Of a DNA stretch of 64,000 bases, positions 31,591-35,197 are shown in pieces. Location: the NCBI RefSeq assembly GCF_018603905.1, contig NZ_JAHFZZ010000029.1, positions 41,625-105,624 on the forward strand. The letters are read 5' to 3'. The notes under the pieces were generated by a model. That model did not search any database. It was not told the origin of the DNA and saw only the letters and a program-made list of their open reading frames with translations. Made by a program: the position numbers and the translations under genes. Positions within the stretch are counted from its first letter, which is position 1, and each line of letters opens with the position of its first letter. The DNA is from Nonomuraea sp. NEAU-A123 (GTDB lineage: Bacteria; Actinomycetota; Actinomycetes; Streptosporangiales; Streptosporangiaceae).

Positions 31591-32601
31591 ATGGCCGGCC
31601 CAACGCTGCGTGACGTCGCCAAACGGGCGAATGTCTCGATTCGCACGGTGTCCAACGTGGTCAACGGCTACGCGCCGGTCTCCGACGAGCTGCGGGCCCG
31701 GGTGCAGGTCGTGCTGGACGAGCTGGGCTACCGCCCCAACCTCATCGCCCGCAACCTCAAGCAGGGGCGTACCGGGATGATCGCCCTGGTCGTCCCCGAG
31801 CTGGACGTCCCCTACTTCGCCGAGCTGGTGCGTGAGGTGATCACCGCGGCCCGCGCGCAGGGCTACGTGGTGATGGTCGACCAGACCGACGGCGACGCCG
31901 AGCGGGAGCGGGAGCTGCTGGCCCGCGACTCACGGGCGACGATGTTCGACGGGCTGCTGCTGAGCCCGCTGGCGATCTCCGCCGAGGACCTGCGCGGGCG
32001 GGGCAACCGGGTCCCGATCGTGCTGCTCGGCGAGCACATCTTCAACGGCAGCTTCCACCACGTCGCCATCGACAACGTCGCCGCCGCCCGTGAGGCCACC
32101 GCGCACCTGCTGGAGCAGGGCCGCCGCCGCGTCGCCGCGATCGGCGACCAGCCGTACGCCACCGGTGAGACCGCCCAGCTCCGCACGTCCGGCTACCGCC
32201 AGGCACACGCCCGCTTGGGACTGGCCGTGGACGACCGGCTCATCGTCCCGACTCCCCGCTTCCACCGGCGCCTGGGCCTGGAGGCGATGGAGCACCTGCT
32301 CGCGTTGCCCGACCCGCCCGACGCCGTGTTCTGCTACAACGACCTGCTCGCCCTCGGCGCGATGCGCGCCCTGACCAGGGCCGGCCGCCGGATCCCCGAC
32401 GATGTCGCGGTGATCGGCATCGACGACATCGAGGAGGGCCAGTACAGCACGCCCAGCCTCACCACGGTCGCCCCGGACAAGGCGGAGATCGCCCGCCTGG
32501 CGGTGGACATCCTCCTGCAGTCGATCAACGGCACGGCCACCACCCCGTCGGAGCTCGTCGTCCCGCACCGCCTCATCGTCCGGGAGAGCACCGCGACCTG
32601 A
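31591..32601 (+). CDS. LacI-family transcriptional regulator
   Basis: 336 residues. GAGGAGGAAC precedes the ATG. HTH and hinge are PTLRDVAKRANVSIRTVSNVVNGYAPVSDELRARVQVVLDELGYRPN; the effector domain ends DVAVIGIDDIEEGQYSTPSLTTVAPDKAEIARLAVDILL. It is divergent from the binding-protein/permease/GH2/propeller operon and probably represses it through the two TGCAACGATGCA sites. A decayed copy of its 3' third occurs at 41693-41940. Confidence 0.92.
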   Translation: MAGPTLRDVAKRANVSIRTVSNVVNGYAPVSDELRARVQVVLDELGYRPNLIARNLKQGRTGMIALVVPELDVPYFAELVREVITAARAQGYVVMVDQTDGDAERERELLARDSRATMFDGLLLSPLAISAEDLRGRGNRVPIVLLGEHIFNGSFHHVAIDNVAAAREATAHLLEQGRRRVAAIGDQPYATGETAQLRTSGYRQAHARLGLAVDDRLIVPTPRFHRRLGLEAMEHLLALPDPPDAVFCYNDLLALGAMRALTRAGRRIPDDVAVIGIDDIEEGQYSTPSLTTVAPDKAEIARLAVDILLQSINGTATTPSELVVPHRLIVRESTAT

Positions 32602-32650
32602 CCGACGGCTCCCTCACGTGCCTGTATTCACGGCGTAAAGCCCGACCGGG

Positions 32651-32735
32651 GGATGCCCAGCCTGAGTCTCGGCATGGGCTCGGACGGTAAAAATCCAGGT
32701 CAGAAGCCCTCTCGGCGGGCAGGCTCAGGGCATCC
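32651..32735 (+). ncRNA. Structured RNA candidate in front of a 39-codon ORF
   Basis: A long-range helix joins GGATGCCCAGCCTG (32651-32664) to CAGGCT (32720-32725) plus GGGCATCC (32728-32735) with only a CA bulge, 14 base pairs in all. Inside, GGGCT (32676-32680) can pair with AGCCC (32705-32709), leaving an A-rich loop (GGTAAAAATCC). The arrangement resembles a compact ligand-binding leader. It does not match the riboswitch classes I compared it with from memory (TPP, FMN, cobalamin, SAM). Confidence 0.5.
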
Positions 32736-32807
32736 GATGGGTTGTAGCCGTGGAGAGCGGGGTCAGTAACCATCCCCGCTGACACCAGAAATTCCACGGA
32801 GAACACT

Positions 32808-32927
32808 GTGTTTATTCTGCGCTTCCTCGGCATGACCCGCCCGCCGGTGCCCATGCCGCCGGATATCTTCTCAGGCGGCAGCTCTGGTGCGGAACTTGCG
32901 CGCCGTCGTCGCCGTCACCGCCACTGA
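32808..32927 (+). CDS. Small basic protein, 39 residues, unknown
   Basis: The GTG at 32808 has GGAG seven bases upstream. The peptide begins FILRFLGMTRPPVPMPPD and ends with a run of Arg and His (ELARRRRRHRH). It lies between the structured element and an intrinsic-type terminator, making a self-contained transcription unit. No family is recognised. It could be a leader peptide or a small nucleic-acid-binding protein. Confidence 0.5.
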   Translation: MFILRFLGMTRPPVPMPPDIFSGGSSGAELARRRRRHRH

Positions 32928-32950
32928 GTTCAACGCTCAACCCAGAAAGA

Positions 32951-32983
32951 CGCTCGGCGGGGAGATTCCTCGCCGGGCGTTTC
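32951..32983 (+). terminator. Intrinsic terminator after the 39-codon ORF
   Basis: A 12-bp stem (CGCTCGGCGGGG with CCTCGCCGGGCG, two G-T pairs, loop AGATT) is preceded by AAAGA and followed by TTTC. Confidence 0.65.
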
Positions 32984-33141
32984 GCTGCGCCGGCCCTCGG
33001 GTGTGTAGCACGGCGTTATGAGGTGGCAGGGTGTGAGTCCGCAACCTTGGCGCCACCCCTAGCCAATACCGGGCCGCCACCCTGCCGGACCAGCGCAACA
33101 CCGGTACGCGTCGTACGCCGACACGCTGCTAGCGTGTGCTC

Positions 33142-33174
33142 GTGCCGAAGACAGACAAGGTGCGCCGTCGCTGA
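33142..33174 (+). CDS. Attenuator leader peptide MPKTDKVRRR
   Basis: GTG CCG AAG ACA GAC AAG followed by GTG CGC CGT CGC TGA encodes ten residues. KTDK at positions 3-6 matches the MVKTDK start of the cat-86 leader peptide, whose nascent chain stalls the ribosome with chloramphenicol. TAGCGT at 33130-33135 could be a -10 element 6 bases before the GTG, so the message may be leaderless; GTG 33136 would add two codons. The stop codon lies in the first hairpin (TGA at 33172-33174). Confidence 0.65.
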   Translation: MPKTDKVRRR

Positions 33175-33268
33175 GAGCGACGGCGCAAAACCCCAGTTCT
33201 CGCCGTCGCTCCTGAGCCTTGGCCAGGAGCGCCTTCGTGGCGCTCGGATTTCCCTTGTTCCGGAGCGC
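33161..33268 (+). promoter_or_regulatory. Six-segment translational attenuator upstream of MFS exporter
   Basis: Segments: 1 = 33161-33172, 2 = 33175-33187, 3 = 33201-33214, 4 = 33224-33233, 5 = 33239-33245, 6 = 33263-33268 (overlapping the Shine-Dalgarno GGAG). Perfect pairings are 1:2 (12 bp), 2:3 (11 bp), 3:4 (8 bp CGCTCCTG/CAGGAGCG), 4:5 (7 bp GAGCGCC/GGCGCTC) and 5:6 (6 bp). The resting state 1:2 + 3:4 + 5:6 hides the ribosome site; stalling over segment 1 allows 2:3 + 4:5 and frees it. Confidence 0.7.
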
Positions 33269-33272
33269 ACCC

Positions 33273-34601
33273 ATGTTCGCCTTGTCTTCTCGTCAACGTC
33301 GGCGTGTCCTTGTCGCTGACCTCATTTCCACCGCGGTGTTCCCGCTCGCCATCACCGGCGCGACAGCGGCTGTCCCCGACGCGACCGCGCAGTTGCCCGG
33401 TGCGGATGCCCTGGGCCCGTGGATCGTCCTCGCCTACAACGGGCTCTTCGCCGCGGCCCTGCTGCTGGCGGGGGCGACAGCGGACCGTACCGCCCGCACC
33501 CGGTTCTTCGCCGTCGGCAACATCGTCGTCGCGGCCACCGGGGTCTTGTCGGCCCTCGCTCCGGACCTGTCGTCTCTGGTAGCCCTCCGTGCGGTCGCTG
33601 GCGTCGGGGCGGCCATGTGCGCCGCCGGTGGATCGTCGATGGTCTTGGCCGTGTACCCGCCGGAGGAGCGGCGTCGGGTGTACGGCTACGCGGGCGTCGT
33701 GCTGGGCAGCAGCCTGGCGCTGGGACCGATCGTCGCCCAGGCCCTCATGGCCGTGGGAGGTTGGCCGCTCGTCTTCGTCGCGCCGGGGGCTGTCGCCGCC
33801 GTCGCGGCCTTGGTCACGCTCGGGCTTCCGGGTCTTCGCAGCCCCGAGGTGTCCGATGACTTCGACCTTGCCGGCGCCGTCCTGTTCGGAGTGACCATCG
33901 CCGCGGTGGTGACCGCACTCGGGCCTGGCCTTGGGGCTGGCGTCCCGTGGTGGGGACCGGGCGTGCTCATCCTCGTCGCGGCAGCCGGCGCCACCGGGCT
34001 CATCCGCGTGGAACGGCGCGCAGCTGATCCCGCGATCCCCGTGGACTTGTTGCGGATCCCCGCCTATCGCGCGTACGCCGTGGCGACGGGTGCCTTCATG
34101 GGGATGCTCGTGGTGGGATTGACCGTCCTCCCGCAGCTCGGCGCTGTCCAGAACATGGGTCCAGGCGAGGCGGCGATCATGCTCAGCCTGCTGACCGTGC
34201 CATCGACGGTCCTTCCGCTCCTTGCCGCTCGGCTCGCGCGCCGACTGGCACGGCAGATGGTGACAACCGCCCTGTTCGCCTGCACCGTCACCGCCGTCAT
34301 CCTCCAGGTGACCGACCATCCTGCCGCTCTTCTCGTGGCGGCCGGGGTCATCGGGCTGTGCCTGGGGCTGACCGAAGGCGTCCCGGACGGGCAGGCGCTC
34401 ACGTACGTGCCCTCCCATCGCGGAGGGGCGGGCGCCGCGCTGTTCAGCACGACGCGGATGAGCCTGGAAACTCTCACCCTGGCCGCCGCCACCGGGGTGA
34501 TGGCGGCTCTCGGCCCCTCATCCGGGATGGCAGTCGCCGGAGCCGTGTGCCTCGCCGCCGCTCTCATCGTCCAGCAAGCCGTCCCCTCCCGCGACACATA
34601 G
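33273..34601 (+). CDS. MFS transporter, probable drug exporter
   Basis: 442 residues, about 12-14 membrane spans. ATG 33273 has CGGAGCG eight bases upstream; the in-frame GTG further upstream lies inside the attenuator. MFS features are LAYNGLFAAALLLAGATADRTARTRFFAVGN (motif A region), LRAVAGVGAAMCAAGGSSMVLAVYPPEERRRVYGYAGVVLGSSLALGPIVAQ (motif C-like) and a Gly/Ala-rich C half. The leader peptide and attenuator suggest induction by a ribosome-targeting antibiotic, most simply an amphenicol; the exported drug is inference. Confidence 0.85.
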   Translation: MFALSSRQRRRVLVADLISTAVFPLAITGATAAVPDATAQLPGADALGPWIVLAYNGLFAAALLLAGATADRTARTRFFAVGNIVVAATGVLSALAPDLSSLVALRAVAGVGAAMCAAGGSSMVLAVYPPEERRRVYGYAGVVLGSSLALGPIVAQALMAVGGWPLVFVAPGAVAAVAALVTLGLPGLRSPEVSDDFDLAGAVLFGVTIAAVVTALGPGLGAGVPWWGPGVLILVAAAGATGLIRVERRAADPAIPVDLLRIPAYRAYAVATGAFMGMLVVGLTVLPQLGAVQNMGPGEAAIMLSLLTVPSTVLPLLAARLARRLARQMVTTALFACTVTAVILQVTDHPAALLVAAGVIGLCLGLTEGVPDGQALTYVPSHRGGAGAALFSTTRMSLETLTLAAATGVMAALGPSSGMAVAGAVCLAAALIVQQAVPSRDT

Positions 34602-34627
34602 CCCACCGCCGTCGCCACTCGCATCTC

Positions 34628-35197
34628 TCAGCTCGCGGGAGCGAAGTCGGCGAATCTTGGGGTGTTCGGCTCGTGGGGCACGCGTGCCGCGGTGGCGGCG
34701 AAGCTGATCGCGTGGTACCAGCCGCAGAGCAGGAGCAGATCGAGGAGCTGGCCGTCGTCTATGACCTCCGCGAGCCGGGCCCACAGTGCGTCGTCGATGT
34801 CGCAGTTGGCGTGCAGGGCGTCGACGGCCTCGATCAGCAGGCGTTCCCGCGGGGACTCCCAGCACGGATCGTCGGGCGTCCCGTGCGTCACCGAGACGAT
34901 CTGCGCGGTGGTCAGCCCGACCCGCTCGGCGAACATCGACACATGCACGCCCCACTCGTACTCGCAGCGGCACCGCGCACACGTACGGGCGATCGTGATC
35001 TCCCGCTCCCGCATGCTCAGCGTCAGCTGACGCCCCAGCTCGTAACGGCCCCATCCGTGCATCGCACCGGTCATCGGAAGATTACCGGCGAACATCCTGA
35101 ACAGCCCGATCGGCGGCACACCCGTCGGCATCATGCTCTCCAACTGCGCCCCGACCTCGGGCTCGTACGGCGGCTCCACAAGCGCTATGCGCGACAT
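34628..35197 (-). CDS. Carboxymuconolactone decarboxylase (CMD/AhpD-like) family protein
   Basis: 189 residues. The core motif REITIARTCARCRCEYEWGVHVSMFAERVGLTTAQI contains CxxC followed by a distal His, the redox/proton-relay set of AhpD-like proteins. Such proteins act as peroxidase partners or lactone decarboxylases. GGGAGGG precedes ATG 35197. It is divergent from the HxlR-type regulator gene, with two operator copies between them, so it is probably that regulator's target. Confidence 0.85.
   Translation of the reverse strand: MSRIALVEPPYEPEVGAQLESMMPTGVPPIGLFRMFAGNLPMTGAMHGWGRYELGRQLTLSMREREITIARTCARCRCEYEWGVHVSMFAERVGLTTAQIVSVTHGTPDDPCWESPRERLLIEAVDALHANCDIDDALWARLAEVIDDGQLLDLLLLCGWYHAISFAATAARVPHEPNTPRFADFAPAS

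Follow-up and report, generated by a model that had tools for sequence, protein, structure and literature searches.

A leader peptide with a constrained fourth residue and a six-segment RNA switch suggest phenicol-type translational attenuation of an MFS exporter in Nonomuraea and other actinomycetes

The cat-86 leader of Bacillus, which carries K-T-D in its peptide and has a single hairpin, and the macrolide attenuators of ermC and ermA, which consist of mutually exclusive multi-segment hairpins (in ermA, six segments with two leader peptides), are among the described systems closest to the locus analyzed here. Macrolide arrest is associated with the peptide motif +X+. In cat-86, chloramphenicol is described as stalling the leader ribosome, with induction of the gene (PMC4191407). 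The description of cmlA combines a short leader and chloramphenicol-dependent arrest with stem-loops that hide the Shine-Dalgarno sequence of an MFS exporter, under a promoter of its own (PMC8876359, PMC10192921), and the arrested leader motif is given as KNAD (PMC10192921). Arrest by chloramphenicol and by linezolid is reported to be best with Ala as the penultimate residue of the nascent chain and less with Ser or Thr (PMC8987054, PMC12121999). With promoters supplied, an intact cmx transposon is reported to raise the chloramphenicol tolerance of E. coli (PMC5467266), and annotation of Corynebacterium striatum already uses the name "chloramphenicol resistance leader peptide" (PMC10486106), a comparison by name only. 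In the accessible portions of the literature, peptide strings included, we recognized no description of the leaders reported below.

Here, we analyzed a stretch of 64,000 nucleotides from the soil bacterium Nonomuraea sp. NEAU-A123 (the window), in which a 10-codon ORF ends in a hairpin (1:2) and is followed by two further hairpins (3:4 and 5:6) before an MFS exporter gene; close relatives conserve 2:3 and 4:5 as alternative helices (Table 1). Judged from sequence comparison, this arrangement suggests that ribosome stalling by a chloramphenicol-like antibiotic acts through the mini-gene and the hairpin chain to switch on the exporter. We consider it probable that leader and switch form a translational attenuator of the exporter with a phenicol as the likeliest natural inducer, and call the putative system phenicol-type translational attenuation, widespread and new in form.

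Table 1. Features of the leader, switch, and exporter unit, in window positions
Feature	Position	Strand	Remarks
Block of leader, switch, and exporter	33125-34604		~1.48 kb
Extended -10 promoter element TGC-TAGCGT	33127-33135	+	TGnTAnnnT type; read from sequence
Leader ORF MPKTDKVRRR	33142-33174	+	10 codons; GTG start; predicted leaderless
Predicted stall site	33151-33159	+	Inferred; Thr4 codon penultimate, Asp5 P site, Lys6 A site
Segment 1	33161-33172	+	
Segment 2	33175-33187	+	
Segment 3	33201-33214	+	
Segment 4	33224-33233	+	
Segment 5	33239-33248	+	
Segment 6	33259-33268	+	Holds Shine-Dalgarno GGAG (33262-33265)
Helix 1:2	33161-33172/33176-33187		12 bp; -23.9 kcal/mol
Helix 2:3	33175-33185/33201-33211		11 bp; -21.0 kcal/mol
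Helix 3:4	33207-33214/33224-33231		8 bp; -13.4 kcal/mol
Helix 4:5	33227-33233/33239-33245		7 bp; -15.0 kcal/mol
Helix 5:6	33240-33248/33259-33268		6 + 3 bp, one bulged base, over GGAG; -14.1 kcal/mol
MFS exporter	33273-34601	+	442 aa; DHA2-like; ATG start; TAG stop

The window shares with cmlA, which resides in class 1 integron cassettes, a short leader, alternative stem-loops over the Shine-Dalgarno sequence of an MFS exporter, and, as it seems, a separate promoter, and in KNAD, as published, Ala is penultimate and Asp last. The described cmlA leader is a 9-aa ORF with a strong Shine-Dalgarno sequence and two alternate stem-loop pairs, whereas the window leader has no visible Shine-Dalgarno sequence, its RNA comprises six segments, and its exporter belongs to another family. 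The likeness to cat-86 on which the initial annotation had relied, the K-T-D of the peptide, is real in the window; other members of the leader family, however, have E, L, I, A, V, or T in place of Lys3, so that the cat-86-like Lys is not the signal, and the gene product differs as well. With ermC and ermA the window has mutually exclusive multi-segment hairpins in common, but the drug logic is different, and ermA uses two leader peptides for its six segments.

The leader peptide that had been proposed to end in the first hairpin was confirmed (codons GTG CCG AAG ACA GAC AAG GTG CGC CGT CGC TGA). Its GTG lies 6 nt downstream of TAGCGT, part of a promoter element absent from the initial annotation, and a TAnnnT is mostly found 6-7 nt upstream of the leader start codon in relatives; a Shine-Dalgarno sequence of the leader's own, as in cmlA, was not seen upstream. 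For WblC-type promoters, TANNNT is reported to precede most start sites by 7 or 8 bp, a spacing said to match profiling of Streptomyces coelicolor (PMC7157823). With this spacing, the GTG itself is the predicted transcription start, and the ORF appears to be leaderless. The complete WblC/WhiB7 promoter motif (GAAAWY, TKGMNN, 16-19 bp, TANNNT) is absent from the window; of 54 leader promoters, 8 match it strictly and another 3 loosely, and every one of these belongs to the distant group. Promoters of GAAAAC / TAnnnT type resembling WblC/WhiB7 targets were seen at L071, L073, L074, and L078 besides distant-group leaders; four Amycolatopsis loci have such a promoter before the exporter and no leader.

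The strongest evidence for the phenicol reading is the peptide as it varies among relatives. Residue 4 is Thr (22), Ser (21), or Ala (9) throughout the 52 distinct leaders, which comprise 34 peptides. Its neighbors are freer, with K, E, L, I, A, V, or T found at residue 3, D, K, V, E, or N at residue 5, and K, R, D, E, or T at residue 6. On a tree of the exporters (49 rows; L069 was left out for its short frame, and L008 and L042 for their broken exporters), residue 4 changed at least 10 times, always within A/S/T, the fewest changes for residues 3 to 6 being 11, 10, 7, and 11; this is a quick tree with several long branches. A finder blind to the peptide gave 40 candidates in 59 loci, 39 of them with A/S/T at residue 4, compared with 14 candidates in 1180 shuffles (3 with A/S/T at this position) and none on 59 reverse strands. 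At other positions of these candidates, A/S/T occurs at residue 2 in 1/40, residue 3 in 2/40, residue 5 in 1/40, residue 6 in 4/39, residue 7 in 2/38, and residue 8 in 15/38 (the Ala group). The one candidate without A/S/T at residue 4, L095 (MARERRPAAKYAV), stands outside the 52 leaders, as does another finder candidate, L081 (MVKSS). With Asp5 in the P site, residue 4 would be the penultimate residue of the chain, a register that KNAD of CmlA also fits. Because A/S/T is universal at residue 4 and agrees with the published context rule, we place the predicted stall site at this point; if stalling occurs at codon 5, every one of the 52 leaders has an early penultimate Ala, Ser, or Thr, as expected of a phenicol attenuator.

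A similar peptide core precedes curated chloramphenicol exporters of another family. The Cmx/CmrA cut-off was passed in 30 of 197 class genomes, and 12 of these 30 loci (L102-L131) have leaders of the form M[S/R]SPE[A/S][S/D]..., one more (L129) has a possible MSTPIADRA, and 17 have no recognized leader. The peptide-blind finder returned candidates in 12 of the loci, ten of them the SPE[A/S] leader, one L129, and one unrelated (L126, MIQN); L104 and L118 were added to the leader count by motif search, and short ORFs that this search found in L108 and L113, with extra ones in L117, were taken as chance. In L122, the downstream hairpins seem by eye to be kept and the leader ORF to be lost to unrelated upstream sequence. 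Among 574 matching plasmid records, the five cmx loci chosen for reading all have a leader, MSSPESDR... in two copies adjoining an IS5564-family transposase and MTSPESDR..., MSSPESAE..., and MACPESDT... in the others. Like the leaders of the window's family, those of Cmx/CmrA are short, begin 6-8 nt after TAnnnT, and have the core P-x-[A/S]-[D/S/A], and their PESDR is the core of MPESDR in L049, L050, and L084. They differ in having peptides of 8-32 residues that start M[S/R/T/A][S/C]P and in serving another exporter family, in a comparison made at the peptide level. The earlier phenicol reading is thus supported by the peptides of both groups, with A/S/T at residue 4 in 52/52 leaders and P-x-[A/S] in 12/30 Cmx/CmrA and 5/5 plasmid loci.

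The inducer could instead be another, perhaps undescribed, peptidyl-transferase inhibitor that follows the Ala/Ser/Thr rule, phenicols being incidental. Linezolid, a synthetic drug, is reported to obey nearly the same penultimate rule, and the window's exporter reaches no cut-off among the 25 NCBIfam families listed of 28 matched (best, EmrB/DHA2); Cmx/CmrA (NF033135) is absent from these 25, and none of them provides a curated phenicol-exporter cut-off that is reached. The leader core nevertheless matches leaders of some Cmx/CmrA chloramphenicol exporters, and we regard such an inducer as rather unlikely. Far less probable is a macrolide-type attenuator, in which a macrolide would stall the ribosome at +X+ (K6-V7-R8 or R-V-R). 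The majority of close leaders, and those of the MPISDRVRRP type, do contain K/R-V-R, yet MPESVDVAA, MPLAKELAAL, and MPESNE lack any +X+ motif and keep Ala/Ser/Thr4. Arginine attenuation, with the VRRR codons sensing charged Arg-tRNA, is more improbable still: most close leaders have three Arg codons, but of the 51 leaders that extend far enough, 17 have Ala at residues 8-9, and the Arg codons also serve as segment 1.

Under the preferred reading of a phenicol-responsive attenuator, a ribosome translating without drug would reach the stop codon and cover segment 2, and 3:4 and 5:6 would stay closed. A stalled ribosome, with its front edge at about nt 28 of the leader, would mask segment 1 and let 2:3 form, after which segment 4 would turn to segment 5 and the Shine-Dalgarno sequence would become more accessible, ideally while segment 6 is still in transcription; the exporter produced would then remove the drug. 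All five helices of the two alternative pairing sets proposed in the initial annotation are present at the expected lengths, 5:6 with a bulge in its pairing over GGAG, and the window has both a short ORF overlapping a hairpin 5' of an export gene and an exporter Shine-Dalgarno sequence inside a hairpin (segment 6), as phenicol attenuators do. Its chain of five overlapping stems scores 123, and no such chain arose in 100 dinucleotide shuffles that kept the first 15 nt; the minimum free energy of 33130-33290 has z = -3.3. An Rfam search of 32600-33400 gave two matches at E <= 1, of 18 and 13.4 bits versus gathering scores of 42 and 45. A scan of 33000-33400 found no terminator on the + strand, and its sole - strand hit is hairpin 1:2 in reverse orientation, which disfavors attenuation of transcription through an intrinsic terminator.

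In predicted folds with a stall mask on 33142-33169 (leader nt 1-28), 2:3 forms at 95% and 4:5 at 34% in the window, and 5:6 is still at 66%; with a mask to 33184-33187 for a ribosome at the stop codon, 3:4 is at 87-90% and 5:6 at 80-82%. Averaged over 26 close leaders, opening of the exporter start costs 13.1 kcal/mol in free RNA, 10.7 in the stop-bound state, 9.6 in the stalled state, and 9.2 when stalled with 4:5 forced. The mean predicted gain in Shine-Dalgarno access of stalled over stop-bound RNA is 1.1 kcal/mol at equilibrium and 1.5 kcal/mol with 4:5 forced, a small step whose direction is right in 23 of the 26 leaders in both stalled cases. The corresponding values for the window (free 9.4, stop-bound 11.8, stalled 9.6, and stalled with 4:5 forced 9.0 kcal/mol) show no clear gain of the stalled state over free RNA. 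Of the cascade flip originally proposed upon blocking of segment 1, folding predicts the formation of 2:3, but the freeing of the Shine-Dalgarno sequence by 4:5 is weak at thermodynamic equilibrium. The model is weakest at this final step, which may depend on co-transcriptional kinetics.

Conservation of the switch is clearest in the close group. Across its 26 leaders, 41 of 56 paired columns are invariant, compared with 2 of the 39 columns that are unpaired and noncoding (p = 2e-13 in a Mann-Whitney test on minor-letter frequency, with columns treated as independent). Pairing is kept in 98.8% of cells for conformer A and 99.8% for conformer B, and falls to 27-61% when the partners are slid by 1-3 columns. 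Covariation is thin: conformer A has two pairs with double changes, a number that 11 of 500 shuffles reach, and conformer B has none and is not distinguished from shuffles in one shuffle control. Bases that fit two partners are expected to vary little, and covariation alone proves little here. The strict five-stem chain is present in 33 of 52 leaders (24/26 close and 9/26 distant) versus 140 of 5200 shuffles, the real score being reached by one shuffle in 100 for L063 and L083; a brittle test based on minimum free energy found five helices in 26/52 leaders versus 8/1040 shuffles. The alternative pairings, whose absence from homologs was to count against the switch, thus stand in the close group and hold in strict form for only part of the distant one. 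The distant group has different sequences in which the relay logic is readable by eye (e.g., L092 and L082), and some leaders of Nocardiopsis type have the relay again, built from other sequences. Its MAFFT alignment (A4) misplaces a gap, and we drew no pair statistics from it; the RNAalifold consensus of A4 is the alternative set (2:3 and an extended 4:5), with a covariation term of 0.11 and double changes in 1 of 18 pairs. By eye, L070 and L087 have additional bases between segments 1 and 2, and the L087 leader is shortened to MPESNE with Ser4 kept. That the conserved block is mainly coding, with an exporter start upstream near 33219 and the helices as by-products, is the least probable alternative. 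Both the window and close relatives do have an open frame upstream, but the codon at the 33219 position is TTG, GTG, CTG, TGG, or ATG among relatives, L018, whose leader is that of L055, has its upstream stretch in a different frame from the exporter start, and the constraint described above tracks pairing.

Leaders of this kind occur well beyond the window. Among 297 sampled genomes of the same order, the peptide pattern matched in 6 (reversed control, 0), and a close exporter (E <= 1e-60) was found in 9, all 9 with a leader; in a tenth genome (G182), a leader lies 5' of a broken exporter. A covariance model built from 10 leaders matched 11 of 54 genus genomes and 8 of 394 class genomes, the latter comprising the genome of the window itself, a single strong hit outside the family (G380), three weak hits (G036, G392, and G503) that lie 5' of related exporters, and three further hits that were rejected. 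Agreement of the peptide and of the downstream MFS gene led us to keep the covariance hits L026, L028, and L029, of which L026 and L029 were removed before counts as duplicates of L091 and L088; L027, L030, and L031 look like terminators or chance and were dropped. A scan with the exporter alignment, at one genome per species, gave 59 named actinomycete loci with a related exporter (G-handle loci repeating these were counted once). A leader is present in 44, found by the peptide-blind finder in 38 and by motif search or eye in 6 (L061, L065, L069, L084, L088, and L094), and absent from 15 (L068, L071-L074, L078, L080, L081, L090, L095, L096, and L098-L101). The leader-bearing genera include Nonomuraea, Streptosporangium, Sphaerisporangium, Streptomyces, Kribbella, Nocardiopsis, Streptomonospora, Saccharopolyspora, Glycomyces, and Leucobacter.

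In comparisons of the window with 43 loci, many of which are one place fetched repeatedly, homology mostly runs from 33124-33127, at the extended -10 element, to 34582-34604, around the exporter stop codon, with flanks that do not match, so that leader, switch, and exporter behave as a single block. Exceptions to these boundaries are the broken copies L008, L042, and L069, the Kribbella loci L057-L059, L056 (ending at 34629), and L018, L041, and L055 (starting at 33134), L041 having an extra 153-base match further upstream. A plasmid search with the window's exporter gave one weak record only.

Somewhat short of even odds, and held tentatively, is a joint reading in which actinomycetes share a nascent-peptide code, the relay, and a mobile block. 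P-x-[Ala/Ser/Thr]-x in leaderless mini-ORFs would report phenicol-type arrest one residue behind the P site; this code would stand before at least two exporter families, here driving a three-step RNA relay, and the natural inhibitor that it reports may be one other than chloramphenicol. Leader, switch, and exporter would move between genomic sites as a single unit of ~1.48 kb with its own extended -10 element. If the leaders do sense phenicol-type arrest, they would amount to a natural saturation experiment on the context specificity of chloramphenicol, in which Ala/Ser/Thr is enforced solely at the residue predicted to contact the drug and its neighbors drift. The penultimate-residue rule could then be tested in native sensors, actinomycete reporters for phenicol-like drugs could be built, and a sequence signature would be at hand for finding undescribed exporters and inducers.

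Remnants of the unit were also observed. In L008, L042, and L069, the leader is retained and the exporter frame is broken. The window's own genome carries an orphan leader stub (MPKTDKVRRWSSRRG; L002 1501-1544, C67) behind a LysR-like gene, with no exporter. The flank of this second leader copy (G000:C67) is 95% identical to that of N. guangzhouensis L043, which has an intact unit at this place.
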